Source: Blastococcus colisei
GTDB lineage: Bacteria > Actinomycetota > Actinomycetes > Mycobacteriales > Geodermatophilaceae
DNA length: 36,274 nucleotides
Direction of reading: 5' to 3'
Assembly (NCBI RefSeq): GCF_006717095.1
Contig: NZ_VFQE01000004.1
Coordinates: 1 to 36,274 of the forward strand
Shown: positions 2,676 through 32,706 of the stretch, piece by piece
Numbering within the stretch: position 1 is the stretch's first letter
Layout: each line of letters starts with the position of its first letter
Position numbers and translations under genes: made by a program
The notes under the pieces: model-generated
The model's input: only the letters and a program-made list of their open reading frames with translations
Database searches by the model: none
What the model was told of the DNA's origin: nothing

Positions 2676-4376
2676 ATGGGGTCCACGCACGAGGTGACCA
2701 ACCAGGTGCCGCCGTCGGCCGGGCACGATCCGATCGCCGGCGACGCGGCGCTCGCCGAGGCCTGCCTGCGGCATGCCGACGAGGCGACGCTGCATTCGCT
2801 GGCCGACCTGGGGCGGCTGGCCGGCAGCGAGCAGGCGCAGGAGTGGGGCCGGGTCGCCAACGAGAATCCGCCGAAGCTCAGGACCCACGACCGCTACGGC
2901 CACCGGATCGACGAGGTGGAGTTCCATCCCTACTGGCACGAGCTGATGCGGACGGCGGTCGAGAACGGCCTGGCCGGCGCACCGTGGGCTGCCCTGTCCG
3001 CCCACCCCACCGCCCCGACGCAGTCCGCCCACCCCGCCGCCCCGACACAGTTCGCCGATCCCACCGCCCCGACGCGCTTTCCCCACGCGCACGTGCGCCG
3101 CGCCGTCGGCTATGTCGGCTGGACCCAGAACGAGATGGGCCATGCCTGTCCGATCACCATGACCTACGCCGCCGTCCCCGCGCTGCGCCGCACCCCCGAG
3201 CTCGCGGCGCGCTACGAGCCGGGGCTCACCGCCACGGCCTACCAGTTCGGACTGACCGAGCCGTCGGCCAAGCGAGGGCTGATCGCCGGCATGGGGATGA
3301 CGGAGAAGCAAGGGGGCTCCGACGTCCGGGCCAACACCACTCGCGCCGTGGCCGAGCCGGACGAGTCCTACCGCCTGACGGGCCACAAGTGGTTCACCTC
3401 CGCGCCCATGAGCGACCTGTTCCTGGTGCTGGCGCAGCTCGAGGAGGGCGTGTCGTGCTTCGCCGTCCCGCGGGTACTTCCGGACGGCAGCCGGAACGTG
3501 TTCCACGTGCAACGTCTCAAGGACAAGCTCGGCGACCGGTCCAACGCCTCCAGCGAGGTGGAGTTCGACGGGACGGTGGGCTGGCTGGTCGGCGAGCCCG
3601 GCCGCGGCGTGCCGGCGATCATCGAGATGGTCAACATGACCAGGCTGGACTGCGTCCTGGGCTCGGCCGCCACGGTGCGCGCCGCCCTCACCCAGGCGAT
3701 CCACCACGCCCGGCACCGGCGGGCGTTCGGCGCTCTGCTGGTCGACCAGCCGCTGATGCAGAACGTGCTGGCCGACCTGGCCGTGGAGAGCGAGGCGGCG
3801 ACCGCCCTGGCCATCCGGCTCGCGGCGGCGGTGGACTCGGGCGAGTCGGCGTTCCTGCGCCTGGCGGGTGCCGCGGCGAAGTTCTGGGTGTGCAAGCGGG
3901 CGCCGGGCGTCGTCGCCGAGGCGATGGAGGTGCTGGGCGGCAACGGGTACGTCGAGGACTCCGGGCTGCCGCGGCTCTACCGGCAGTCGCCGCTGAACTC
4001 GATCTGGGAGGGGTCGGGCAACGTGATCGCGCTCGACGTGCTGCGCGCGATGGGGCGTTCCTCGGACACGCTGGCCGCGGTGAGCGCGGAGATCGAGCTC
4101 GCCCGCGGGGCGGACGAGCGGTTCGACGACGCGGTGAAGCGGCTGCACGCCGAGCTCGGGGACGCGGAAGGGCTACCGTTCCGGGCGCGGCGAATCGCCG
4201 GTCTTCTCGCGCTGTGCCTCCAGGGCTCGCTGCTGCTGCGGTACGCGCCGACGGCCGTCGCGGATGCCTTCTGCGCCTCTCGCCTGGGCGAACGCGGCGG
4301 TGCCGCGCTCGGGATGCTCCCGGCCGGTGCCGCGGCCGGCACGATCGTCGATCGGGCGTCGATCGCGGCTGTCTGA
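2676..4376 (+). CDS. aidB: AidB-family acyl-CoA dehydrogenase
   Basis: This FAD-dependent acyl-CoA dehydrogenase-fold protein closely follows E. coli AidB, the alkylation-response protein with isovaleryl-CoA dehydrogenase activity. Matching blocks include ANENPPKL, VEFHPYWHELM, CPITMTYAA, KRGLIAGMGMTEKQGGSDV, GHKWFTSAPMSDLFLVLAQ, LKDKLGDRSNASSEVEF, LGGNGYVEDSGLPRLYR and NSIWEGSGNV. At about 566 residues it is slightly longer than AidB. The extra length is partly a His/Pro/Ala/Thr-rich insert made by a 27-bp tandem repeat just before the HAHVRRAVGY segment. In E. coli, AidB binds DNA and is proposed to protect against alkylation; whether that holds here is inference. The GTG at 2667 is an alternative start. 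It stands alone, 55 nt after the toxin-like gene. Confidence 0.9.
   Translation: MGSTHEVTNQVPPSAGHDPIAGDAALAEACLRHADEATLHSLADLGRLAGSEQAQEWGRVANENPPKLRTHDRYGHRIDEVEFHPYWHELMRTAVENGLAGAPWAALSAHPTAPTQSAHPAAPTQFADPTAPTRFPHAHVRRAVGYVGWTQNEMGHACPITMTYAAVPALRRTPELAARYEPGLTATAYQFGLTEPSAKRGLIAGMGMTEKQGGSDVRANTTRAVAEPDESYRLTGHKWFTSAPMSDLFLVLAQLEEGVSCFAVPRVLPDGSRNVFHVQRLKDKLGDRSNASSEVEFDGTVGWLVGEPGRGVPAIIEMVNMTRLDCVLGSAATVRAALTQAIHHARHRRAFGALLVDQPLMQNVLADLAVESEAATALAIRLAAAVDSGESAFLRLAGAAAKFWVCKRAPGVVAEAMEVLGGNGYVEDSGLPRLYRQSPLNSIWEGSGNVIALDVLRAMGRSSDTLAAVSAEIELARGADERFDDAVKRLHAELGDAEGLPFRARRIAGLLALCLQGSLLLRYAPTAVADAFCASRLGERGGAALGMLPAGAAAGTIVDRASIAAV
2997..3077 (+). repeat. Three in-frame 27-bp tandem repeats inside aidB
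   Basis: The units are 2997-3023, 3024-3050 and 3051-3077, encoding SAHPTAPTQ, SAHPAAPTQ and FADPTAPTR. The first two differ at only a few bases, so the expansion is recent. The reading frame is kept. Confidence 0.85.
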
Positions 4377-4492
4377 TCACCCGTCCGAGGAACTACTCTC
4401 GATGTCATTCACCGGGCGACCGCGGCACTGCCGGACGGGTCCGTACCGAATTTCCGCCTGGAGCGGACGACGAACGGGCGAGGCGGGGGAGC

Positions 4493-6613
4493 GTGCAACC
4501 AGACGGTGACGGGCCGCGGCCAAGCCAGCCCGACGTGCTGGCCGGCGTCCCCGATGCCGTCTACCGCCTCGACCACGAGGGCCGGTTCACGTACTTGAAC
4601 GCCGCGGCCGAGAGGCTGCTCGAGCGCCGAGCGCAGAAGCTGCTCGGTCACCACGCGTTCCATGTCTTCCCGGCCTCGCGCGGGACGATCGCCGAGACGC
4701 ACTTCCGGGACGTCCTCGCCGACCGGCAGCCCCGCCAGTTCGAGTACTACCACGAGCCGCAGGACCGCTGGTACGACGTGCGAGCGTTTCCCGACCCGGG
4801 CGGGCTCGCCGTCTTCTTCCGGGACATCGACGCGCGGCACCGCACCGACCAGCAGCGGGAGGCCGCGCTCCACGAGCTCACGGCAGTCCTCGCGGCCCTG
4901 CCGACGGCCACCGTCCTGGTCGGCGAGGACGGCCGCATCCTGGTCACCAACCGAGCCTGGGAGGCCGACGCCGACCTGCTGCGCAGCAACGACATCGACG
5001 CCGGCGGGGTCGGTGACGGATATCTGGACTGCATGTCGCGAGGACTGCGGCCCGGCGACCACGCCATGATCGCGGCCGCGTTCCACCGGCTGCAGGCCGA
5101 GTCCGCGGAGAGTCCTCCCGGGTCGTTCGACCACGAGTACTCCGCCCAGCTCGGCTCGTTCACCAGCTGGTTCCGGCTGCAGGCCGCGCGGGTTCCGGAG
5201 TCGCGACGAATCGTGGTGACCCACACGAACATCACCGACCGGGTGCGGGGCGAGCAGGCGCTCGCCTGGCGGGCGGGCCACGACGAGCTGACCGGCCTGC
5301 CGAACAGAGCCACGTTGCTGGACATGACCGCCGACGCGCTGGCGTCGGGCTCCCCCGACGCCCCGGGCACCGCACTGCTGGTGCTGGACCTCGACGGGTT
5401 CAAGACGGTCAACGACTCCCTCGGCCACCAGCTCGGCGACCGGCTGCTGCGCGAGGTGGGCGGTCGCCTGGCCGAGCAGGTGCGACCGGGCGACGCCGTG
5501 GGCCGGCTCGGTGCCGACCAGTTCGTCGTCCTCGCCCGCGACTGCGACCAGGCAGAGGCCGCGGCGCTGGCTTTCCGGCTGCAGACGACGTTCACCTCGC
5601 CGTTCACGGCGTCCGGCATCTCCGTTCCCCTGTCGGCGAGCATCGGCGTCGCCGTGTCCCGGTCGGACGTGCGCGACCCGCACCAGCTGCTCAGTGACGC
5701 CGACGCCGCGATGTTCGCGGCGAAGAGCTCCGGACGCGACCGGGTCCACCTGTTCTCCCCCGGGCTCCGCGAGGCGGCGCGCTGGCGGCTGGAGGTCGCC
5801 ACGCGGCTGCGAGGCGACGCGATCGACCAGCTCGTCGTCCACTACCAGCCGGTCGTCCGCCTGGACACGGGCGCGGTCGAGGGCGTGGAGGCCCTGGTCC
5901 GCTGGCAGCATCCCGAGCGCGGCCTGCTCCCTCCCGACTCCTTCCTGTCCGTCGCCGAGGAGACCGGTCAGGTCATCCCGATCACCCGGTGGCTGCTCCG
6001 CGAGACGACCCGCAAGGCGGCCGAGTGGGCCGCGCAGGGGCTTCCGCTGCGCATGTCGGTGAACGTGAGCGCCCGGCACTTCTCCGCCGAGACCCTGGTC
6101 AGGGACGTCCGGGTGGCGCTGCGCGACTCCGGGCTGCCGCCGGACCAGCTGGTCCTGGAGCTGACCGAGACCAGCGTCGCCGAGGACCCGACCCGCGCCG
6201 AGGACCAGCTCACCGTGCTGCGGAGCTTCGGTGTGCGGGTCGCCATCGACGACTTCGGGACCGGCTGGTCGTCCCTCGCGCAGCTGTTCTCCCTGCCGAT
6301 CGGCACGCTCAAGATCGACCGGTCGCTGCTGAATGCGGCCGAGCGGGCCGTGGCCGGGGAGACCGGTGCGGTGCTCACGGCCATCGTCGAGCTCACCCGG
6401 ACCCTGGGCATCAGGTCGGTCGCGGAGGGCGTCGAGACACCGGAACACCTGCGGATGGTGCGGGAAGCAGGGTGCGACCTCGCCCAGGGCTGGTTGCTCG
6501 GTCAGCCCATGCCGGCCGAGGAGATCCCCCGTTTCGTGCGATCGGTCCAGGCTGCCGGCGGCGATCTGTGCGCGCTCGCCGTCGCCGGCAGCGCGGCCTC
6601 CCAGGCCGGGTGA
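4493..6613 (+). CDS. PAS-PAS-GGDEF(degenerate)-EAL c-di-GMP phosphodiesterase
   Basis: This 706-residue cytoplasmic signalling protein has no membrane segment. Two PAS-like sensor domains come first (about 15-120, with FTYLNAAAERLL, and about 130-250). The GGDEF domain (about 255-420) has GADQF at residues 340-344 instead of GGDEF, so cyclase activity is probably lost, though it may still bind GTP. The EAL domain (about 440-690) keeps its catalytic set: EAL at 466-468, NVSARHF, ELTETS, IDDFGTGWSS, LKIDRS, AEGVET and QGW. I predict c-di-GMP hydrolysis controlled by the PAS domains. The GTG at 4493 follows a GGGGGAG stretch; no other start is available in frame before the first PAS domain. A PilZ c-di-GMP receptor lies 1.1 kb downstream on the same strand, separated by a NYN gene. 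Confidence 0.92.
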   Translation: MQPDGDGPRPSQPDVLAGVPDAVYRLDHEGRFTYLNAAAERLLERRAQKLLGHHAFHVFPASRGTIAETHFRDVLADRQPRQFEYYHEPQDRWYDVRAFPDPGGLAVFFRDIDARHRTDQQREAALHELTAVLAALPTATVLVGEDGRILVTNRAWEADADLLRSNDIDAGGVGDGYLDCMSRGLRPGDHAMIAAAFHRLQAESAESPPGSFDHEYSAQLGSFTSWFRLQAARVPESRRIVVTHTNITDRVRGEQALAWRAGHDELTGLPNRATLLDMTADALASGSPDAPGTALLVLDLDGFKTVNDSLGHQLGDRLLREVGGRLAEQVRPGDAVGRLGADQFVVLARDCDQAEAAALAFRLQTTFTSPFTASGISVPLSASIGVAVSRSDVRDPHQLLSDADAAMFAAKSSGRDRVHLFSPGLREAARWRLEVATRLRGDAIDQLVVHYQPVVRLDTGAVEGVEALVRWQHPERGLLPPDSFLSVAEETGQVIPITRWLLRETTRKAAEWAAQGLPLRMSVNVSARHFSAETLVRDVRVALRDSGLPPDQLVLELTETSVAEDPTRAEDQLTVLRSFGVRVAIDDFGTGWSSLAQLFSLPIGTLKIDRSLLNAAERAVAGETGAVLTAIVELTRTLGIRSVAEGVETPEHLRMVREAGCDLAQGWLLGQPMPAEEIPRFVRSVQAAGGDLCALAVAGSAASQAG

Positions 6614-6717
6614 TCGGCCGCCGGGCCGGCCGCCGGGCGACCGCGCCGGCCGGGCCGCCACGGCCGCCCGAGCTGCGCCCCCCGGTCCCGGGACGCACGG
6701 AGGAGCGGTCGGCGCGG

Positions 6718-6723
6718 CAGACT
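6718..6723 (+). promoter_or_regulatory. Candidate leaderless -10 element (CAGACT-N6-GTG) for the NYN gene
   Basis: CAGACT is followed by 6 nt and the GTG at 6730. The same arrangement, sharing GGCAGACTG and CCCGTG, is found before the GAF-ANTAR gene at 12416. Confidence 0.45.
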
Positions 6724-6729
6724 GCTCCC

Positions 6730-7464
6730 GTGCCCGACAGCCTCGACGCCGAACTCGCGACCCTGACCGACGGGGAGCCGGTGCCCGACGGGCCGTCGTC
6801 CCTGCCTGCCGCGGCGGTGGCCGAGGGGCGGCCGCAGCCGGCGCTGGACCTCCTGATCTGGGACGCCCCGAACATCGACATGACCCTGTCGACGGTGATC
6901 GGAGCGCGTCCGACCGCGGCCTCGCGACCCCGGTTCGACGCCATCGCGGCCTGGTTCGTCGACGGCGCCGGGGATCCGACCGCGCCCGGTGCACCGGAGG
7001 TCGAGGCGTGCGTGTTCGCCAACATCCCGCCGCAGCCCGGGACGCTGCAGCGCTGGGTGGAGGCGCTGCGAGGCTTCGGGTACTCGGTGTTCGCCCGGCC
7101 GAAGTCGCAGCCCGACGACGACATCGACCAGGACATGCTCGACCACATCGCCGTGCGGGCCCACAGTCATCGGCTGCGGCGGCTGGTCGTGTTCTCCGGC
7201 GACGGGCGGAACTTCGCCGAACCCCTGGAGCAGATGGTCCGCGAGGGCACCCACGTCGTCGTCGTGGCCTTCAGCGAGGTGGCCGGCTACGCCATCAGCT
7301 CGGAGCTCCTGGAGTTCATCGACATCGAGGACGTGCCCGGGGCCTTCGTCGAGCCGCTGGACCGGGTCCGCCTCGACGCGCTGCCGCCGGACGGCGCCTG
7401 GCTGCGCCCGACTCGCAGCCTGCGGGACTTCGTGAGCAGCTTCAACGCCCGCCGGGATCGCTGA
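6730..7464 (+). CDS. NYN (PIN-like) domain protein, putative RNase
   Basis: The 244-residue product carries a NYN domain of the PIN-like nuclease fold from about residue 38 to 200. Recognisable parts are LDLLIWDAPNIDMTL (first acidic site), a variable middle, DDDIDQDMLDHIA (second acidic cluster) and VVFSGDGRNFAEPL (third acidic site), then LEFIDIEDVPGAF. These acidic positions bind metal in PIN-like nucleases. A standalone NYN protein of this type is common in actinobacteria; its RNA substrate is unknown. The GTG at 6730 is favoured because the domain begins soon after and the CAGACT box implies a leaderless mRNA. It sits 116 nt after the EAL gene. That gap holds the GC-rich inverted sequence GGCCGCCGGGCCGGCCG near 6617, possibly a terminator, and a GTCCCGGGAC palindrome at 6685-6694. 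Confidence 0.8.
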   Translation: MPDSLDAELATLTDGEPVPDGPSSLPAAAVAEGRPQPALDLLIWDAPNIDMTLSTVIGARPTAASRPRFDAIAAWFVDGAGDPTAPGAPEVEACVFANIPPQPGTLQRWVEALRGFGYSVFARPKSQPDDDIDQDMLDHIAVRAHSHRLRRLVVFSGDGRNFAEPLEQMVREGTHVVVVAFSEVAGYAISSELLEFIDIEDVPGAFVEPLDRVRLDALPPDGAWLRPTRSLRDFVSSFNARRDR

Positions 7465-7735
7465 GGGGTCCGCACGCCGAGGTGCCGCGCCCACCGCGGC
7501 CGGCGCTCGCTGCGGCGACGCTCCTGCCCCTTCCGGGTGGAGGACGGCGGGCGGGACCTCCTCGACCGTCGATCCGGGCCGATGACAGTGAGAGGCGCAG
7601 CAGGTGTTGCGCCCTGCGGCGCGTCGGGGGCGGGCGGCGTGGTCGGTCGTCGGCCCGCGAGTTACCGTCCCATCGCGGTGTGGCAGAGCGGGTCGAACGG
7701 GCCCGTGCCCCCGCGGTACCGATCGGAGAGGCACC

Positions 7736-8398
7736 ATGACGAGCGTTCCCGGGATGGATCACCCGGAAGAGCAGACGGAAGCCGAGATCACGCTCTCCGG
7801 CCGGGGTGTGTCCGTCAGCTCGCGGGTCGAGGTCGTCCAGAACGAGTTCATCTCGGTGCGGCCCTCCGTCGGCGAGTTCGTCGAGCAGGTCGTGGTCAAG
7901 GTCGGCGACGTCGTCGAGATCTTCTGGAAGACCGAGGACTCCCAGCGCGCCATGCCCGCGGAGATCACCGACGTGGAGACCGGCGCCGTCGTCCGCTGGC
8001 GGATGCGCACGACCGGTCCGGCGGACACCAGTCAGCGGCGCAAGGCGGTCCGTGGTCGCATCGCGGTCCCGGTCGAGGCCGAGCACGGGGCCATCGACCT
8101 CAAGGGCACGAGCATCGACCTCAGCGAGGCCGGCATCCGGGTCGAGTTCGAGGGGCTGGGCGCCCCGCCCGAGGCCGGCGCGAAGCTCCTCCTCGTCGTC
8201 CACCTCGACGACGGCGACATCCGGACCCCGGCCGAGGTGGTGCGCACCCAGGCCCGGGGCGCCCGCTGGGTCATGTCCATCCGGTTCGTCGACATCCCGG
8301 AGAAGGACCAGGACCGCGTGCGGCGGCGCGTCTTCCAGGCGCTGCGCGAGGAGCGGGCGAACAAGGCCGATGACGCCCCGCCCGGGTTGCGGGGGTAG
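7736..8398 (+). CDS. PilZ-domain c-di-GMP receptor, YcgR-like
   Basis: The 220-residue soluble protein has an N-terminal beta-rich YcgR-type domain (about 15-95) followed by a PilZ domain (about 98-210). The two c-di-GMP-binding motifs are intact: R102xxxR106 in QRRKAVRGR, and D128xSxxG133 in DLSEAG. In bacteria with this architecture, binding alters flagella, secretion or polysaccharide output; the partner here is unknown. The ATG has a good GGAGAGG site 5-8 nt upstream. A TACCGT hexamer at 7663-7668 is a possible -10. The 271-nt gap before it holds no convincing gene. It probably reads the c-di-GMP level set by enzymes such as the upstream EAL protein, which is inference from proximity. Confidence 0.87.
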   Translation: MTSVPGMDHPEEQTEAEITLSGRGVSVSSRVEVVQNEFISVRPSVGEFVEQVVVKVGDVVEIFWKTEDSQRAMPAEITDVETGAVVRWRMRTTGPADTSQRRKAVRGRIAVPVEAEHGAIDLKGTSIDLSEAGIRVEFEGLGAPPEAGAKLLLVVHLDDGDIRTPAEVVRTQARGARWVMSIRFVDIPEKDQDRVRRRVFQALREERANKADDAPPGLRG

Positions 8399-8428
8399 CC
8401 GGGCTCCGTACGGGGCAGTCATCGCCGT

Positions 8429-10132
8429 GTGAGCGTCCCACCTCTGCGGCTGCCCGACGCCCTTGCCGCGTTGCGGGACCAGCTGGCCGCGACGCCCCTC
8501 GGGCTCGCCACGCCGGCCCGGGACACCGCCGCACGCGCGGCCCGTGCCGTCCGCGACCAGATCGACGACTACCTGCTCCCCCGGCTCGGTGATCTCGACG
8601 CGCCCCTGCTGACCGTCGTCGGCGGCTCCACCGGCGCCGGGAAGTCCACCCTGGTCAACAGCCTCATCGGGAGTCCGGTGACCACCGCCGGCGTGCTCCG
8701 GCCGACGACGCGAGCCCCCGTGCTCGTCTGCGCGCGGACCGACGTGGCGGCGTTCGAGGGCGACCGCGTCCTGCCCGGGCTGGCCCGGGTCACCGGCGGC
8801 GCCGGCGGCCCGGGAACCGTGCAGCTGGTCGTCCGGGACGACGTCCCCGCCGGGCTGGCACTCCTGGACGCCCCGGACGTCGACTCGGTGGTGGAGTCCA
8901 ACCGCGAGCTGGCCGGTCAGCTGCTGGCCGCGGCCGACCTGTGGGTCTTCGTCACCACCGCCGCCCGCTACGCCGATGCGGTGCCCTGGGATCTGCTCCG
9001 GACCGCGCAGGAACGCGGTACCGCCCTCGCCGTCGTGCTCGACCGGGTGCCGCCGGAGGCCGCGGCCGAGGTGGCCGCCGACCTGCACGGGATGCTGCAG
9101 CGGGCCGGCCTGGCCGGCGCTCGCCTCTTCGTCGTGGAGGAGCGCCCGCTGGTGGACGGACGGGTGCCGGAGGACCAGGTGGCGCCGCTGCGGACCTGGC
9201 TGCACGAGCTCGCCGCCGATCAGGAGGCGCGCGCCGCCGTCGTCCGCCAGACGCTCACCGGCGCGCTCGACAGCCTGGAGCAGCGGGTCGGCGGCGTCGC
9301 CGTCGTCGTCGACGAGCAGGTGGCGGCGGGGAACGCCCTCCGCGGTGCGGCGGCCGCCGCCTACACGGCCGCCTACCAGGGCATCGACGACGGCGTGCGC
9401 AGCGGCACGCTGCTGCGCGGCGAGGTGCTGGCCCGGTGGCAGGAGTTCGTGGGCACCGGCGAGTGGATGCGCGCCCTGCAGGGCCAGGTCGGCCGGCTGC
9501 GCGACCGCGTGGTCAGCGTGGTCACCGGCCGGCCCACGCCGGCCGACGACCTCCAGGGCGCGTTGGAGAACAGCGTCGAGCGACTGCTGCGCGCCGAGGC
9601 CGACCGTGCCGCGGAGCGGACGGTGACCGCCTGGCACTCGCTGCCCGCGGGCGCGCAGCTCCTGGCCGGCGACGAGCGGGACCTCGAGCGGGTGTCGCCC
9701 GACTTCCCGGAGGCAGCGGCCGCGCAGGTCCGTGACTGGCAGGGGATGGTGCTGGACCTGGTCCGCGACCAGGGCGGGGACAAGCGGTCCCGGGCCCGGA
9801 TCCTCTCCTGGGGCGTCAACGGTGCCGGGGCGGTCGTCATGGTGGCGGTCTTCGCCCACACCGGCGGCCTCACCGGCGGTGAGGTCGCCGTGGCCGGTGG
9901 GACGACCGCCGTCGGCCAGCGCGTGCTCGAGGCGGTGTTCGGCGACGCCGCCGTCCGGTCCCTGGCCGCCCAGGCCCGAGCGGACCTGCAACGCCGGGCC
10001 GACGGACTGCTGCGGTACGAGCAGGCCCGCTTCGACGACCGGGTGGACGACGCCGCGCCGGTGCCGGGCGCGGCCGAGGCGCTCCGCGCGACCGTGGCCG
10101 GGCTGGCCGCTGTCCGCCGGGCCGATTCATGA
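8429..10132 (+). CDS. Dynamin-like / YfjP-type GTPase, first of a pair
   Basis: The 567-residue protein has a G domain near the N-terminus: P-loop GGSTGAGKST at residues 65-74, switch I region RPTTRAPV, and G3-like LDAPDVDS. The G4 position reads LDRV instead of N/TKxD, so base specificity may be relaxed. The rest is long-helical, as in dynamin-like proteins, with one hydrophobic segment (AGAVVMVAVFAHTGG, about 468-483) that may insert in the membrane. Streptomyces encodes a similar adjacent pair, DynA/DynB, which stabilise FtsZ rings during sporulation septation. Equivalence here is plausible but unproven. The GTG at 8429 is the only suitable start and lacks a strong ribosome site. The next gene overlaps it by 4 nt (ATGA), so the two are co-translated. 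Confidence 0.82.
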   Translation: MSVPPLRLPDALAALRDQLAATPLGLATPARDTAARAARAVRDQIDDYLLPRLGDLDAPLLTVVGGSTGAGKSTLVNSLIGSPVTTAGVLRPTTRAPVLVCARTDVAAFEGDRVLPGLARVTGGAGGPGTVQLVVRDDVPAGLALLDAPDVDSVVESNRELAGQLLAAADLWVFVTTAARYADAVPWDLLRTAQERGTALAVVLDRVPPEAAAEVAADLHGMLQRAGLAGARLFVVEERPLVDGRVPEDQVAPLRTWLHELAADQEARAAVVRQTLTGALDSLEQRVGGVAVVVDEQVAAGNALRGAAAAAYTAAYQGIDDGVRSGTLLRGEVLARWQEFVGTGEWMRALQGQVGRLRDRVVSVVTGRPTPADDLQGALENSVERLLRAEADRAAERTVTAWHSLPAGAQLLAGDERDLERVSPDFPEAAAAQVRDWQGMVLDLVRDQGGDKRSRARILSWGVNGAGAVVMVAVFAHTGGLTGGEVAVAGGTTAVGQRVLEAVFGDAAVRSLAAQARADLQRRADGLLRYEQARFDDRVDDAAPVPGAAEALRATVAGLAAVRRADS

Positions 10133-24563: not shown

Positions 24564-25289
24564 TCACCGCACTCGCCGGGCCGCCGCCACCAGTTCGCCG
24601 ATCCGGCGGGCGTGGGCGCCGGCCCAGTAGACCCGGCCGCAGGCCCTGCACCGCGCGAACTCCTCGAAGCTCCGCAGCGTGCCCGGCTCCAGCCGGTGGG
24701 CGACCTCCTCCTTGGCGACCGGCTGCAGCGGCCCTCCGCAGGCGGTGCAGCGGGTCAGGGGCGCGAGGACGGGGGCGAAGCGATCCAGGACGTCGGCGAG
24801 CGGGTCGTCGGGGTCGCTGCCGCGCACCAGGGCTCCCCGGGTCAGTGCTCGGCGCATCAGCAGCCCGCGATCCTGGGTGAGCAGCGCCCGGTGCTCGGTG
24901 ACCGCGCGGTCGACGAGCTCCGGGTCGTCGGCATCGTTGGACCACGCCGCGTCCAGGCCGAGCAGGCGCAGCCGGCGGGCCAGGGCGCCGAGACCGACGT
25001 CCAGCAGGAAGCCGCCGGTCGCCGATGGCTCGGGGCGGGCTCGCTCGACGACCTCGATGGAGCCACCGGGGCGGGCCCGCGCGCCGGCCGGCACGGGTTC
25101 GCCGTCCAGCCGGAGCGCGCCCACCTCGCTCAGGGGCACTCCGGCGGACTGCACGACGTGGCCGACGGTGGCGTCGGGGTCGAAGCGCAGTCGCCGCATA
25201 CCAGCGTGCCGGTCCCGCCTGGGGAGCAGGAAGCGCAGCGGCACCGGGACGACGACATCGACGTCCTGCGGTCCTGACCGTTCGTCCAT
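24564..25289 (-). CDS. Ubiquitin-like / Mut7-C RNase-domain protein
   Basis: The 241-residue protein has an N-terminal ThiS/MoaD-like ubiquitin-fold domain (about 10-85) followed by a Mut7-C domain (about 90-240). Mut7-C has a PIN-like nuclease core; acidic residues are seen in FLLDVGLGALARRLRLLG (D97), the NDADD cluster near 120 and LTQDRGLL (D140). A zinc ribbon with C181xxC184 and C214xxC217 closes the protein. The family is named for the C-terminal part of the animal exonuclease Mut-7 and is predicted to act on RNA; the bacterial role is not established. The ATG at 25289 has GGAGGG about 12 nt upstream, slightly far. It is divergent from the VOC gene. Confidence 0.88.
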   Translation of the reverse strand: MDERSGPQDVDVVVPVPLRFLLPRRDRHAGMRRLRFDPDATVGHVVQSAGVPLSEVGALRLDGEPVPAGARARPGGSIEVVERARPEPSATGGFLLDVGLGALARRLRLLGLDAAWSNDADDPELVDRAVTEHRALLTQDRGLLMRRALTRGALVRGSDPDDPLADVLDRFAPVLAPLTRCTACGGPLQPVAKEEVAHRLEPGTLRSFEEFARCRACGRVYWAGAHARRIGELVAAARRVR

Positions 25290-25905: not shown

Positions 25906-27449
25906 GTGAGCCTGTCGCACAAAGCGCGCCTGATTGATGATCATCCTGGGCGGCGGGAGACTGGGGTATGCCGCAGAACTTCATCCGCGGGGATGTCGAT
26001 CAGGGGTTCCTGCTGCCGCCGGATGTGCGGGATTGGCTGCCCGACGGGGAGCTGGCCTGGACGGTCAAGGATGCGGTGGACTCGTTCGACCTGTCGGGGT
26101 TCAAGCGCTCGTATCGGGCCAACGGGCAGGGCGCGGCGGCGTTCGACCCGGCGCTGATGGTGGCGGTGCTGCTGTACGCGCACGCGGTCGGGGTGCGCTC
26201 GTCGCGGGCGATCGAGCGGCACTGTGTCCGCGATGTGGCGTTCCGGGTGCTGGCCGGCAATCGGGTGCCCGATCACGCCACGATCGCCCGGTTCGTCACG
26301 CGTCACCGCCAGCCGCTGCAGGAGCTGTTCGCGCAGGTGCTGCGGGTGTGTCACGAGGCCGGGATGGTGCGGCTGGGCGTGATCGCGGTGGACGGGACGA
26401 AGATCGCCGCGAACGCCTCCTGGTCGAAGAACCACACCTCGGCGTCGCTGGCCCACCAGGTCGCCGAGGAGCAGGCCCGCTACGACCAGCTGGCCGCCGA
26501 GCTGCTCGACGAACAGACGCGCATCGACGCGGCCGAGGACGCCGAACACGGCGACGACCGCGGGGATGAGCTGCCACCGCCGCTGCGCCGGCGGGCCGAG
26601 CGGTTGGCTCGACTGAAGGAGGCCAAGCAGCGCCTGGACGACGAGCAGGCCGCGGCCGTGGCCGAGCAGGAGGTGAGGAAGGCCGAGTGGCAGCGCCGCA
26701 AGGACGCCGGCACCCGCCGCGGCGCCCAACCGGGCGAGCATCCACCGGGCCGCAATCCGGACAAGGACAAGCCGCCGCGGGCCAACGCCACCGATCCGGA
26801 CTCGCGGACGATGCGGGGCGGGCGGGGGCTGGTGCAGGGCTACAACGCCCAGGCCGCGGTCACCGAAGACCAGCTCATCGTCGGCCAGACGCTGACCCAG
26901 GCGGCCACCGACGCCCATCAGCTGTTTCCCGTCCTCGATGACGCCGCCGAGCAGCTGAACCAGGCCGGCATCGAGGAGACGCCCGACACCTGGGTCGCCG
27001 ACGCCGGCTACGCCAACGAGGAGACCTTCACCGAGGCCGAGACCCGCGGCCTGCGCCTGCTGGCCCCGATGATCAGCGACGAACGCCGCGCCGCCGGCGA
27101 GGACCCCGCCGGGGACAAACCGCTGACCTCCCGCCCGGCCACCGCCCGCGCCCAGGACAGGCTGCGCACCCCCGAAGGCACGGAGAAATACGCCCTCCGA
27201 GGACGCACGGTCGAACCGGTCTTCGGCCAGATCAAAGACCGGCAGGGACTACGCCAGCTCCTCCGCCGCGGCCTGCAGAACGCCAAGACCGAGTGGTCGC
27301 TGGCCTGCACCGTGCACAACCTGCGCAAGATCCACGCCCACCGGCTGGCCACCGCCTGATCCGGGGGCGGCCGGCACCGCCGACAGCGCTGACCGGGCCA
27401 CTATCCCCGCTCCCGACCACCATCAACCGGCGCCCGCCCCCCGACTCAC
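25906..27449 (+). mobile_element. IS1182-like insertion sequence with imperfect terminal inverted repeats
   Basis: The transposase gene is flanked by related ends. Left, GCGCCTGATTGATGATCATC at 25926-25945. Right, the complement of 27415-27433 reads GCGCCGGTTGATGGTGGTC. Outside both cores are GTGAGCC (25906-25912) and GTGAGTC (complement of 27443-27449), which I take as the outer limits. This gives about 1.54 kb. The match is imperfect and no target duplication is evident, so the outer borders are approximate. Confidence 0.55.
25968..27359 (+). CDS. IS1182-family DDE transposase
   Basis: The 463-residue transposase is full length. The N-terminal part (MPQNFIRGDVDQGFLLPPDVRDWLP) and the DUF772-like region (FDPALMVAVLLYAHAVGVRSSRAIE) are typical of IS1182. 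Catalytic residues are visible: D142 in AVDGTKIAANAS, D345 in VADAGYAN and E416 in TVEPVFGQIKDRQGLRQ. A long charged coiled-coil insertion (about 160-280) separates the first two, as usual in this family. No frameshift or stop was found, so the element may still be active. The ATG at 25968 has a GGGAGACTGGGG purine-rich stretch upstream. The element sits between the VOC gene and the compound palindrome at 27.5 kb. Confidence 0.92.
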   Translation: MPQNFIRGDVDQGFLLPPDVRDWLPDGELAWTVKDAVDSFDLSGFKRSYRANGQGAAAFDPALMVAVLLYAHAVGVRSSRAIERHCVRDVAFRVLAGNRVPDHATIARFVTRHRQPLQELFAQVLRVCHEAGMVRLGVIAVDGTKIAANASWSKNHTSASLAHQVAEEQARYDQLAAELLDEQTRIDAAEDAEHGDDRGDELPPPLRRRAERLARLKEAKQRLDDEQAAAVAEQEVRKAEWQRRKDAGTRRGAQPGEHPPGRNPDKDKPPRANATDPDSRTMRGGRGLVQGYNAQAAVTEDQLIVGQTLTQAATDAHQLFPVLDDAAEQLNQAGIEETPDTWVADAGYANEETFTEAETRGLRLLAPMISDERRAAGEDPAGDKPLTSRPATARAQDRLRTPEGTEKYALRGRTVEPVFGQIKDRQGLRQLLRRGLQNAKTEWSLACTVHNLRKIHAHRLATA

Positions 27450-27498: not shown

Positions 27499-27568
27499 CG
27501 CGCGACAGGCTCGAGTGGCAGTTATGGCCATAAGCGCCACTCGCGCGACAGATATGGCCATAACTGCC
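27499..27568. repeat. Compound palindrome with repeated CGCGCGACAG and TATGGCCATA
   Basis: GGCAGTTATGGCCATA (27517-27532) and TATGGCCATAACTGCC (27553-27568) are a perfect 16-bp inverted repeat, 20 nt apart. Overlapping this, CGAGTGGC (27512-27519) and GCCACTCG (27536-27543) enclose the perfect 12-bp palindrome TTATGGCCATAA (27522-27533). The decamer CGCGCGACAG occurs at 27499 and again at 27542. It lies between two converging genes, typical of REP-like elements. Its A/T-rich core differs from the surroundings. Function unknown. Confidence 0.85.
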
Positions 27569-27581
27569 GTTCGGCACGGCG

Positions 27582-28064
27582 TCAGCTGGCGAGGACCTGC
27601 GGCGAGGTGACCTTCAGGTGCGCGTTCGCCCATCGGGTGATCCGTAGCGACTCCGGGTGGCAGCGCTCGGCGATGTCGAGCAGCTCCTGCTCCTTGGCCC
27701 CCTGAGCGCCCTGCGCGAGCAGCTCCCAGTCCACCGAGGTGCCCGCCGCCTCCCGGTACAGGTGCCGCAGGTCGGCGAGCAGCAGCAGGCCGGGCGCCGA
27801 GCGGCGTCCGGTGAGGACCGAGGCGCGCTGCTTCATGGCGGAGAGCAGGCCGGGGTCCTCCGACGCCTCCGGGTCCAGGTCCAGGCCGAAGTCCCGTCCG
27901 ATCCTGGCGAGATCGGCCACGTGCTCGCGCGACCACTTCGCCATGTCGCGGGTGACGTAGAAGACCTCGTGGTCGGCCTTGTGCTTGTCCGACATGGACG
28001 TCAGCACGGTGACCAGGTGGTTCTCCGAGCGGTGCAGTTCCTCGATGGCCATGTCGAGCTTCAT
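27582..28064 (-). CDS. Small all-helical protein partnered with the molybdopterin oxidoreductase
   Basis: The 160-residue protein is predicted to be almost entirely helical. Helix one, MAIEELHRSENHLVTVLTSM, and helix two, DHEVFYVTRDMAKWSREHVADLARI, are rich in Glu and His. Two further helices are LLLLADLRHLYREAAG and the long segment ending ESLRITRWANAHLK. This pattern is reminiscent of ferritin-like or hemerythrin-like four-helix bundles, but I cannot assign metal ligands with confidence and do not recognise the family. It starts at the ATG at 28064 and overlaps the oxidoreductase stop by 4 nt (ATGA), so the two proteins are made together. A role as chaperone, electron-transfer partner or regulator of the enzyme is inference. 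It has a single Cys, in ERCHPES. Confidence 0.75.
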   Translation of the reverse strand: MKLDMAIEELHRSENHLVTVLTSMSDKHKADHEVFYVTRDMAKWSREHVADLARIGRDFGLDLDPEASEDPGLLSAMKQRASVLTGRRSAPGLLLLADLRHLYREAAGTSVDWELLAQGAQGAKEQELLDIAERCHPESLRITRWANAHLKVTSPQVLAS

Positions 28065-30526
28065 CGCCGGTCTCCCGTCGTCACCAGTTCCTCGGCCAGG
28101 GCGGCGTCGCCACCCGTCGTGGGCGGCACCGAACCGGTGACCGGGGCGGAGCCCGTCGTCGTCGGAGCGGCGGAGACCTGGCCCTTCGCCTTGGAGATCC
28201 GCTCCACCGCCGCTGCCGCGGTCTTGAAGATCGGCTGCTTCGACACCGGGTCCCAGTCGGTCAGGGTGAGTTCGTTGGCCGCCCGGCCGTCGCGCTTCTT
28301 CTTCGGCTGGGAGCCGTCCTCGGTGTCCCAGTAGCCGTAGTGGAACGGCAGGAAGAGCGCTCCCGGCCGGATGCCGCTGACCCGGAGCCGGGCCTCCACC
28401 CGGCCGCGCGGAGTCGTGATCCTGAGCAGGTCGCCCTCGGTGAACCCGCGGTCGGCGGCGTCGCCGGCCGCCATCTCCACCCAGACCTCCGGCGCGGCGG
28501 CGTTCAACTGCGGCGCCCGCCCGGTCTTCGTGCGGGTGTGGAAGTGGTACAGCGTGCGCCCGGTCATCAGCTGGAACGGGTACTGCTGGCTCGGCAGTTC
28601 GTGCGGGCCGATGTACTCGGCCGCCTTGAGCACCGCCCTGCCGGTCGGGTTCATCGCCTTGTACTCGGTCTCCTCGACCGGGGCGCCGGTGATCATGTCC
28701 CGGCCGTAGCTCTCGCAGTAGTCCGGGTGCGCCCAGAACCTTCCGTCCTCGTAGATGCGCTCGGTGCCGTCGGGATGCTCGTCGTTGCAGGGCCACTGGA
28801 TGCCGCTGCCGCCGCGCAGCTTGTCGTAGGACATGCCGGTGTAGTCGCACGGCCGGCCGCGGCTGCACTCCTTCCAGCCTTCGAAGGCGCCCTCGGCGTC
28901 GCTCCACTTCACCAGCGGAGCGCCGTCCTTGTCCTCCAGCCCCATCCGGTGGGCGAAGTCGATGAGGATGTCCAGGTCGGCCTTCGCCTCGCCAGGCGGC
29001 TCCACCGCCTTGTCCGAGATGTGCACCGTGCGGTCGACGTTGGTGAAAGTCCCCGTCTTCTCGCCCCACGTGGCGGCGGGCAGGACGACGTCGGCGAGCT
29101 GGGCGGTCTCGGACAGGAAGATGTCCTGGACGACGAGGAACAGCCGGTCCTGAGCCAGGATCTCCCGGATCCGGCGGAGCTCGGGCAGCGAGACCGCCGG
29201 GTTGGTGGCGGTCACGTACAGGAAGCGGATCGAGCCCTCTTCCATGTACCGCAGCTGCTGCATGATGTGCGTCGGCGGCGAGTAGTGCGGGATCTGCATC
29301 GGGTCGATGTTCCAGACCCGCGCGAGGTCGGCGATGTGCTCGTCGTTCTCCCAGTTGCGGAACGCCGGCAGGTCGCCGTCCGCCCCCGCTTCGCGGGTGT
29401 TCTCCGCGGTGGGCTGGCCGTTCATCTGCAGGATGCCGCAGCCGGGCTTGCCCAGCATGCCGCGGATCACGTTGATGTTGTTGACGCTCACGGCGGCGGC
29501 CGACGCCTGGTGCGCCTGGTAGAAGCCCTGCAGGACGGTGGACAGCAGTCGCTCGGCCTGGCCGAGGATGCGGGCCGCCTCCCGGATCTGCTCGGCCGGG
29601 ACGTCGCACACCTCCGCGGCCAGCTCGGGGGTGTAGCCCTTCATCTGCTTCTCGAGCTCGGCGAAGCCGACGGTGTGGGCCTCGACGTACTCCCGGTCGA
29701 TCCAGCCGTTCTCGATGATCTCGTGGATCAGCGCGTTCATCAGCATGACGTTCGTGCCCGGCCGCGGGGCGAGGTGCACGGTGGCCGCGCGGGCGACCGG
29801 GGTCTCCCGCGGGTCGACGCAGATCACCTTCGGCGGGTTGGGCCCGGCCAGCCGGTCGAGCACGCGGGTCCACAGCACGGTCTGCGTCTCGGCCATGTTG
29901 TGCCCGTACAGCGCTATGACGTCGGCGTGGTCGATGTCGGTGTAGGAGCCGGGCTGGCCGTCGCAGGCGAACGTCTCCTTGAGCGCCGCCGCCGCGGTGG
30001 CGGTGCACAGCCGGGTGTTGCCGTCGACGTGGTTGGTGCCGATGCCGCCGTGGGCGATCAGGCCGAGCGTGTAGTACTCCTCCAGGAACAGCTGCCCGGT
30101 GGTGTAGAAGCTGATCGCGCTGGGCCCCTGCTCCTCGAGCAGCTCCTTGGCCCGGCCCGCCACGGCGTCCATCGCGGTGTCCCAGTCGGTCTCGACCAGC
30201 TTGCCCTTGCGCCGGATCAGCGGCTTCGTCAACCGGTCGGGCGAGTGGTTGGCCTGCCAGCCGAACAGGTCCTTGGGTCCGAGCCGGCCGTGGTTGACCC
30301 GGTCGACCTCCCGGCCGCGGACACCGACGATCCGCTCGTCCTTCACGGCGATGTCCAGCGCATCGCCGTTCGAGTGCAGGATCGTCGCCGACTGGACCCA
30401 TCGGTCCACGTCGTCCTCGGTGAGGCCGTCGGCCAGGTAGGAGTCCACCCGGGTCGGCCAGGTCTCTCCTGGTCCGTACGGGGTCCGACTGCCCCACGGT
30501 TCGGCGATCCGGTCGATCCTGCCCAT
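28061..30526 (-). CDS. Molybdopterin oxidoreductase (NasA/FdhF type) lacking the N-terminal [4Fe-4S] cysteines
   Basis: The 821-residue protein has the full DMSO-reductase-family layout, from RIVGVRGREVDRVNHGRLGPKDLFGWQ to the C-terminal dinucleotide-binding domain (YPFQLMTGRTLYHFHTRT, GDLLRITTPRGRVEARLRVS). The likely molybdenum ligand is C174 in NTRLC. Where relatives carry three or four Fe-S cysteines, this protein has SATILHSNGDALD (residues 46-58), without any Cys. The cluster is therefore absent, and electron transfer must differ from nitrate reductases and formate dehydrogenases. No Tat signal is visible, so it is probably cytoplasmic. The ATG at 30526 follows GGGAG by 6 nt. A Thr/Pro/Gly-rich tail follows residue 780. 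The substrate cannot be assigned. It is followed by a coupled 160-residue helical protein. Confidence 0.87.
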   Translation of the reverse strand: MGRIDRIAEPWGSRTPYGPGETWPTRVDSYLADGLTEDDVDRWVQSATILHSNGDALDIAVKDERIVGVRGREVDRVNHGRLGPKDLFGWQANHSPDRLTKPLIRRKGKLVETDWDTAMDAVAGRAKELLEEQGPSAISFYTTGQLFLEEYYTLGLIAHGGIGTNHVDGNTRLCTATAAAALKETFACDGQPGSYTDIDHADVIALYGHNMAETQTVLWTRVLDRLAGPNPPKVICVDPRETPVARAATVHLAPRPGTNVMLMNALIHEIIENGWIDREYVEAHTVGFAELEKQMKGYTPELAAEVCDVPAEQIREAARILGQAERLLSTVLQGFYQAHQASAAAVSVNNINVIRGMLGKPGCGILQMNGQPTAENTREAGADGDLPAFRNWENDEHIADLARVWNIDPMQIPHYSPPTHIMQQLRYMEEGSIRFLYVTATNPAVSLPELRRIREILAQDRLFLVVQDIFLSETAQLADVVLPAATWGEKTGTFTNVDRTVHISDKAVEPPGEAKADLDILIDFAHRMGLEDKDGAPLVKWSDAEGAFEGWKECSRGRPCDYTGMSYDKLRGGSGIQWPCNDEHPDGTERIYEDGRFWAHPDYCESYGRDMITGAPVEETEYKAMNPTGRAVLKAAEYIGPHELPSQQYPFQLMTGRTLYHFHTRTKTGRAPQLNAAAPEVWVEMAAGDAADRGFTEGDLLRITTPRGRVEARLRVSGIRPGALFLPFHYGYWDTEDGSQPKKKRDGRAANELTLTDWDPVSKQPIFKTAAAAVERISKAKGQVSAAPTTTGSAPVTGSVPPTTGGDAALAEELVTTGDRR

Positions 30527-31936: not shown

Positions 31937-32299
31937 TCACGAGCGCCAGGCCGGTCGGACCAGGTGCTCGCCCGCGGACGAGCGCACCCGCTCCACCATG
32001 TGCCGGAGCCGCCGTCCGCGGGGCTCGTGGTCGCGGGCCGGCCGGGGTCTGGGCCCGCCGCGCAGCGCGGCGCCGAGCAACCGGCGCAGCGCGACGATGA
32101 CGGCGGCGGTGAGGATCACCTGCCAGTTCGGCTCACCGGCCAGCCGCAGCAGCCCCGCGGCGAGGAGCAGGTCCAGCAGCACGCCCAGCGCGGTGGCCGG
32201 GCGGCGCGTTCCCACGAGGGCCAGTGCACCAGCGGCCAGGGCCGCTGCAGCGACGGCGTGCGAGGACCACAGCACGACGTCGCTCAGGAGGCCGGTCAC
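31937..32299 (-). CDS. Small membrane protein next to DUF1622
   Basis: The 120-residue protein has two or three hydrophobic helices (about 5-30, 36-52 and 58-75) followed by a basic, Arg-rich cytoplasmic tail (GGPRPRPARDHEPRGRRLR). No domain is recognised. The GTG at 32299 overlaps the stop of the DUF1622 gene (GTGA), so the two are translationally coupled and their products probably work together in the membrane. Nothing indicates a substrate. Confidence 0.7.
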   Translation of the reverse strand: MTGLLSDVVLWSSHAVAAAALAAGALALVGTRRPATALGVLLDLLLAAGLLRLAGEPNWQVILTAAVIVALRRLLGAALRGGPRPRPARDHEPRGRRLRHMVERVRSSAGEHLVRPAWRS

Positions 32300-32706
32300 A
32301 CCGTCGCGCCCCGGTGGCCGTGCGAGGTGACGTCGGCCCGCTCGCCGTCTGCCTGGTCCTCCTCGACCTGCCGGCGTTCCTCGGCGATCTCCTTGGAGAG
32401 GAAGTAGTTCAGCGCGGTCCGGATGGTCGCCACGGCGGCGAGCTGGCCGAGTTCCTCCCAGCTGGGTGCGACCGCCGTCTTCAGCACGTCACTCGCGAGC
32501 TGGAACTCCAGGCCGAGCGCCAGGAATCTGCCGAGGGTCAGCCGGACGGGGACGAAGGCCGCCGTGGTCCGTCGGCGTACCCCGACCCAGGCGAAGCGGG
32601 CGAAGGCCCACACCGCCCCGATGATGATGATCGCGGCGCCGCAGGCCTCCACGATCACGACCAGGACATTGACGACCTCCGCGAGCAACTCTTCCACGGC
32701 GGGCAC
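32296..32706 (-). CDS. DUF1622 family membrane protein
   Basis: The 136-residue protein has one strong N-terminal transmembrane helix (LLAEVVNVLVVIVEACGAAIIIIGAVWAF) and a conserved amphipathic middle. Blocks such as VRLTLGRFLALGLEFQLASDVLKTAVAP and LAAVATIRTALNYFLSKEI are the hallmark of the DUF1622 family, whose function is unknown. The C-terminus is acidic and His-rich (DVTSHGHRG). The GTG at 32706 gives the expected family N-terminus; ribosome-site support is weak. It overlaps the following small membrane-protein gene by 4 nt. Confidence 0.87.
   Translation of the reverse strand: MPAVEELLAEVVNVLVVIVEACGAAIIIIGAVWAFARFAWVGVRRRTTAAFVPVRLTLGRFLALGLEFQLASDVLKTAVAPSWEELGQLAAVATIRTALNYFLSKEIAEERRQVEEDQADGERADVTSHGHRGATV

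Follow-up and report, generated by a model that had tools for sequence, protein, structure and literature searches.

A Cys-free loop at the cluster site of a molybdopterin oxidoreductase from Blastococcus colisei, and its ferritin-like partner

The stretch of DNA analysed here (the window) comprises 36,274 nucleotides of contig NZ_VFQE01000004.1 of Blastococcus colisei. It encodes an oxidoreductase of the molybdenum bis(pyranopterin guanine dinucleotide) (Mo-bisPGD) type in which, as judged by alignment, the cradle of the N-terminal [4Fe-4S] cluster is replaced by a conserved Cys-free loop, H51-SNG-D55 ... G/D83-P-K85-D86. The enzyme and the small protein encoded immediately downstream of it, which is predicted to be a ferritin-like four-helix bundle, make up a real, conserved two-gene unit (Table 1). 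Tentatively, we favour the view that the pair is a cytosolic two-subunit reductase of a nitrate-like oxyanion, in which the ferritin-fold subunit would cover part of the role of the lost cluster.

The loop at the former cluster site

Residues 46-58 of the large subunit (821 codons, minus strand) read SATILHSNGDALD, and this loop aligns onto the cluster motif of the solved NapA and of the solved FdhF of hydrogen-dependent carbon dioxide reductase (HDCR). In this alignment T48, H51, D55 and G83 take the places of the former cluster ligands. The molybdenum ligand, C174, and T175 which follows it are each found in 81/81 rows of the family alignment. An earlier reading of the letters alone (the original prediction) had remarked on both the missing Cys of the loop and the intact molybdenum ligand, and both observations hold.

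A profile search of genome contigs gave at least 598 stretches, at least 594 of them encoding a relative of the enzyme, and the best 80 (L001-L080) were used. Together with ten plasmid loci and further sets of 15, 13, 19, five and 26 these form a family set of 168 loci, which includes some near-duplicates and in which sampling beyond the Actinomycetota consists of plasmids. In the 162 loci that reach the loop there are two states and no third, [STA]-H-D-[GD] in 140 and C-C-C-G in 22. All 140 Cys-less loci have H51 and D55, with Ser, Thr or Ala at position 48, while in the Cys-less rows position 83 is Gly or Asp and K85 and D86 are retained. The run H51, S52, N53, G54 and D55 is invariant in the 80 rows, the window included, that reach the loop. 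K85, which lies two residues past G83 and which we take to be the lysine located between cluster and pterin, is retained in 49/49 alignment rows.

The ratio of non-synonymous to synonymous substitution rates (omega) is 0.17-0.25 for the window enzyme gene against five relatives and 0.10-0.41 for the partner gene. Because only two loop states occur in 162 loci and omega for the enzyme is in this range, the enzyme gene is not decaying, as the original prediction had also maintained. The loss of four ligands and the scattered broken copies among the relatives (L112, L180, L184) could be taken as marks of a degenerating nitrate reductase, but the same two results, with the retention of the partner, already contradict this, and we give it hardly any credence. 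The predicted fold of the window enzyme is that of NapA, of the Mo-bisPGD type, and in a Pfam search its molybdenum-cofactor domains scored over the cut-off and the Fe4S4 domain under it. Confidence in the modelled loop is low (predicted local distance difference test score, pLDDT, below 50 for residues 45-56). The N-terminal residues 1-40 face a gap in each of the 14 four-Cys outgroup rows and likewise in the relative from Staphylococcus.

The original prediction had also left room for cysteines elsewhere that could bind a cluster. None lies in the CxxC region, but C554, C560, C580 and C604 are conserved in 79, 81, 75 and 80 of the 81 rows and are a possible candidate for another metal site. 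A cluster or metal relocated to these residues would fit both this conservation and the near absence of C554 and C604 from the four-Cys outgroup, where the four occur in 1, 2, 3 and 0 of nine rows respectively. They are present, however, not only in the Cys-less group (23, 23, 22 and 23 of 23 rows) but also in the three-Cys rows (10, 10, 9 and 10 of 10); therefore they were not gained upon the loss of the loop Cys and, as most actinobacterial three-Cys rows have all four, they do not track it. In addition C580 is replaced by Val in 6/81 rows, and the region is modelled at a block-mean pLDDT of about 53-73. Relocation would seem very unlikely.

The partner protein

The partner family adjoins the enzyme in 163/168 loci, and in 58/80 relatives the stop of the enzyme overlaps the start of the partner in an ATGA junction as in the window, from which we infer translational coupling of the two. 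At L138 and L140 no partner is seen, the available sequence breaking off within the enzyme frame or where that frame ends; at L168, L181 and L139 (one gene with L169) none is found in the downstream sequence present. The partner profile matched 16 of 246 sampled genomes of the phylum, 15 with the enzyme adjacent and the last a weak, broken match. The enzyme occurs in 17 genomes numbered up to G245, and 15 of these also match the partner, the missing ones being G141, which is cut, and G197. Enzyme and partner form a single frame in Halomonas sp. KO116 (L179), and an HPP gene follows it. This fusion is the strongest sign that the two function as one unit, and their relation as subunits is well supported. 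FdhD and fdhF genes are likewise found near the fusion on the Halomonas plasmid.

The fold of the partner is confidently predicted as a ferritin-like four-helix bundle, and its structural matches, among those listed, are ferritin-like at 1-14% identity. Its sequence gave no convincing Pfam, NCBIfam or PDB match, the window partner having none at all in Pfam or NCBIfam; over 80 members of the family the stray Pfam matches reached an E-value of 0.0017 at best, with DUF892 in 1/80 at 0.1. The ferritin di-iron ligand set consists of ExxH motifs. In the partner no conserved ExxH pairs, and so no canonical di-iron motif, were found, which together with the low identity and the want of a Pfam match sets it apart from ferritin, bacterioferritin and YciE-like bundles. 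Instead E14, H48, D98 and C135 are conserved singly, in 137, 137, 136 and 133 of the 138 partners of Cys-less enzymes and each in 14/14 partners of actinobacterial three-Cys enzymes. In the other full-length partners (n=5) E14 and C135 are present in only 4/5, being Ser and Met in the Halomonas fusion.

These four residues, one per helix, are candidates for a new metal site through which the ferritin-fold partner might bring electrons to the pterin, a state that would have been reached via a three-Cys intermediate that still survives. The site itself is a guess. We regard this relay as unlikely, slightly more so because the fused partner in Halomonas lacks E14 and C135, so that there the metal site would have to differ.

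Alternatively, the partner may be a dedicated maturation chaperone, like NarJ or TorD in function but with another fold, that inserts Mo-bisPGD into an enzyme for which cluster insertion is no longer available as a step in folding, with a small diffusible donor supplying the electrons directly. The partner is all-helical, its gene overlaps that of the enzyme and it was not found apart from the enzyme in the 246 genomes. Moreover, in NarG the insertion of the cluster precedes and assists that of the molybdenum cofactor, according to the accessible part of PMC5123574, and therefore the loss of a cluster could require a new helper. Against a chaperone stand the fusion with the enzyme in Halomonas, the ferritin-like character of the listed structural matches, and the presence of the partner alongside the majority of the three-Cys enzymes, in which a cluster may still be bound. 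That no TorD/NarJ-type chain appears among the 50 structural matches listed is uninformative either way. We consider a chaperone somewhat unlikely.

Three-Cys relatives

Of the C-C-C-G loci, 14 belong to family f4, of the same class, with CxxCxxxC and Gly at the fourth position, and one more lies in another family; one row of f4 is identical to Enteractinococcus coprophilus (Micrococcaceae). The same state is plasmid-borne in Curtobacterium, Deinococcus aetherius (two), D. taeanensis, Hymenobacter volaticus, Halomonas and Staphylococcus saprophyticus. Cys-less members were found in Actinomycetota only, plasmids being what was sampled outside that phylum. With three Cys and a non-Cys fourth position these relatives (22/162 loci) may hold a [3Fe-4S] cluster such as that of IdrA and AioA.

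Two trees were made. In the first, of 73 rows and supported by the Shimodaira-Hasegawa-like approximate likelihood ratio test (SH-aLRT) only, the Cys-less rows form one clade (SH-aLRT 96). The second, of 49 rows including the non-actinobacterial members and with the loop columns excluded, separates the four-Cys rows from all others by a branch with support 100/100. Among those others the Staphylococcus protein diverges first, followed by the Deinococcus-Hymenobacter-Halomonas group and finally by the Actinomycetota (98/91). Because three-Cys lineages thus branch before the Actinomycetota, the three-Cys state is likely ancestral to the Cys-less one, and the cluster was probably lost stepwise, from four Cys to three to none. 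The Staphylococcus and L144 rows are flagged as long branches in this tree.

The original prediction had proposed a tree as a check on whether a Cys-less clade exists. A conserved Cys-less group, a clade or near-clade under selection, does exist, and the final losses were one or several. In the second tree the group is not monophyletic, as the Cys-less L109 stands next to actinobacterial three-Cys rows and the Cys-less label takes two changes (three when the long rows L169 and L181 are left out), yet a single Cys-less clade is not rejected by this data set in the approximately unbiased test (p-AU 0.089). A single loss with re-gain, several convergent losses or recombination may each account for this. 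With extant enzymes of four, three and zero Cys, and an unnamed partner fused once, the function of a Mo-bisPGD enzyme after cluster loss becomes directly testable, and the partner is a concrete unknown to assay.

Table 1. Positions of the enzyme, its partner and their features in the window, and of two plasmid-borne three-Cys relatives in their own loci
Feature	Position	Strand	Remarks
Cys-less Mo-bisPGD oxidoreductase, large subunit	28061..30526	-	821 aa + stop
Family-specific N-terminal segment, residues 1-40	30407..30526	-	WG, WP, R26 and D28 conserved
Residues 46-58, one-time CxxCxxxC loop	30353..30391	-	
Residues 83-86 (G P K D), one-time fourth-Cys position	30269..30280	-	
C174, Mo ligand	30005..30007	-	followed by T175
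Residues 554-604, candidate other metal site	28715..28867	-	C554, C560, C580, C604
Predicted ferritin-like four-helix-bundle partner	27582..28064	-	160 aa + stop
ATGA junction, enzyme stop overlapping partner start	28061..28064	-	
L181, Staphylococcus saprophyticus plasmid three-Cys enzyme	5983-8409		41% identical; without partner and N-terminal segment
L179, Halomonas sp. KO116 plasmid three-Cys enzyme-partner fusion	5983-8811		

Comparison with known enzymes and possible function

The window enzyme, like L111, L179 and L181, scores under the cut-off for each of the NCBIfam models listed. For the nitrate reductase models it scores 417 bits against a cut-off of 1100 (NasC, NF047855), 357 against 1000 (Halo NasA, NF041323) and 316 against 931 (NapA, TIGR01706). 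With NapA, NasA and NarB it shares the Cys ligand of molybdenum, but it lacks the CxxCxxxC...C ligands of the [4Fe-4S] cluster and its family differs from them in the 40-residue N-terminal segment and the 160-residue partner. The best E-value among solved sequences, 2.3e-112, is to FdhF-type enzymes, that of HDCR included. The active site of FdhF is (Sec/Cys)-His; the family has C174-T175 instead, and the window enzyme also lacks the cluster Cys of the FdhF type and scores 466 bits against 666 with TIGR01591 and 134 against 582 with the FdhF/YdeP family TIGR01701. Most of the plasmid-borne relatives listed carry the label 'nitrate reductase'. Many relatives are so annotated though they lack the feature that lets electrons into enzymes of this kind, and a capacity for nitrate reduction deduced from the annotation may therefore be mistaken.

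TorA and BisC function without an N-terminal [4Fe-4S] cluster, and AioA has a [3Fe-4S] cluster in its place. The accessible part of PMC10100899 reports that several members of the dimethyl sulphoxide reductase family, DorA among them, have no N-terminal [4Fe-4S] cluster, that DorA-type enzymes have Ser as molybdenum ligand and that IdrA carries [3Fe-4S] in place of [4Fe-4S]. Cluster loss as such is therefore already known from other Mo-bisPGD lineages. The interpretation in the original prediction is partly supported: the conserved Cys-less group is real, but to require a different acceptor or another kind of reaction goes beyond the evidence. The window family differs from DorA, TorA and BisC in being Cys-ligated, through C174, and nearest to the NasA/NapA types; TIGR00509, for the Ser-ligated type, gives 131 bits against a cut-off of 1018, and TIGR02693, for AioA/IdrA, 162 against 359. 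What appears to be new is cluster loss within the Cys-ligated NasA/NapA-like branch, with its three-Cys relatives and partner.

A clade already described with an assigned reaction would have refuted the original prediction; no publication on the clade, its reaction or its partner was found in a search whose coverage of subscription journals was thin, and the accessible parts of PMC3662644, PMC10609526 and PMC6650914 do not describe the family. Two candidates were set aside, the metallopterin ergothioneine synthase, which retains four N-terminal Cys (PMC9516567, accessible part), and MSMEG_6816, whose reported 720 residues do not fit (PMC7816997, accessible part). The latter source also reports that deletion of the M. 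smegmatis 'NarB' (A0QW69), a possible member of the family, gave no nitrate phenotype and that its expression was not detectable.

The pair would derive from nitrate reductases of the NasA/NapA type, and its large subunit would have kept the Cys ligand, the pterin-binding fold and some of the nitrate-type pocket. GQ145, the GQPxA segment, R378 and LPxxR390 are kept as in most nitrate-type rows. The small subunit would be expected to bind the large one stably, as the Halomonas fusion suggests, and might dock or relay electrons to the pterin edge, or stabilise the cofactor-binding core. The substrate would be an oxyanion, which is moderately supported, with nitrate as the first candidate. HPP proteins are nitrite transporters, according to the accessible parts of PMC8774688 and PMC4137279, and HPP genes adjoin the pair in 17/166 loci searched, in other branches only, an undercount because many of the later loci have flanks of only 1-1.5 kb. 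An FNT gene adjoins the pair in D. aetherius, with a further FNT match at L136 and a weak one at L002. Such neighbours of nitrite-transporter type, seen in other branches, speak for chemistry on nitrogen oxyanions. On the Curtobacterium sp. MCBD17_040 plasmid (L177) MoeA lies downstream of the three-Cys enzyme and an NTP transferase gene also adjoins. Upstream, at 3933-5612, is a sulphite-oxidase-type molybdopterin protein (Oxidored_molyb) with a cytochrome-b561-like match below the cut-off.

Several points weigh against this reading. Relative to the 14 four-Cys rows the family has changed its pocket throughout, from Met to T175 (13 Met), Asn to H166 (9 Asn, 4 Gln), Ser to H209 (11 Ser), Asn to Y336 (11 Asn) and Thr to N369 (13 Thr), and P387 of the LPxxR element is Ser in several three-Cys rows. 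The flanks of L001-L080 gave no HPP match and the genome of the window has no HPP gene. It does encode a separate Fe-S enzyme, which scores best with NasC (772 bits, cut-off 1100) and is directly adjoined by nirB, itself above its cut-off; this enzyme and the changed pocket residues argue against simple nitrate assimilation. The three-Cys enzymes L139/L169 and L168 and that of Staphylococcus have no adjoining partner. Because conserved ExxH pairs are missing, an iron relay through the partner is unsupported. The electron route in general is not at all supported.

The remodelled pocket and the missing cluster ligands could also point to an enzyme without electron transfer through the protein, catalysing a non-redox or self-contained reaction that needs no relay, as in acetylene hydratase or transhydroxylase. 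The pocket changes are, however, common to the three-Cys relatives, which may still hold a cluster, and the constancy of K85, the nitrate-type pocket elements and the nitrite-transporter-type neighbours fit such a reaction poorly. Acetylene hydratase itself carries an Fe4S4 cluster (PMC9516567, accessible part). We think a reaction of this kind distinctly unlikely.

The NasC-like Fe4S4 enzyme of the window's genome lies on the minus strand at G000:C1:2733926-2738910, and its open frame is longer by about 460 residues at the N-terminus. A conserved wider operon in the clade of the window was considered and rejected, since clusters of flanking open reading frames over the 80 loci reached at most 18/80 and the examples were apparently spurious frames. 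In the window a transposase (DUF772/DDE_Tnp_1_6; 25968-27359, plus strand) is convergent with the partner gene, and between it and the partner stop an inverted repeat was read by eye around TATGGCCATA (GGCAGTTATGGCCATA ... TATGGCCATAACTGCC; 27500-27580), which may represent a terminator or else the end of an insertion sequence. Further out are a Mut7-C RNase domain with its N-terminal ubiquitin-like domain (24564-25289, minus strand) and a DUF1622 protein (32296-32706, minus strand), which possibly forms a tandem pair with the neighbouring frame at 31937-32299, a weak match to the same family below the cut-off.
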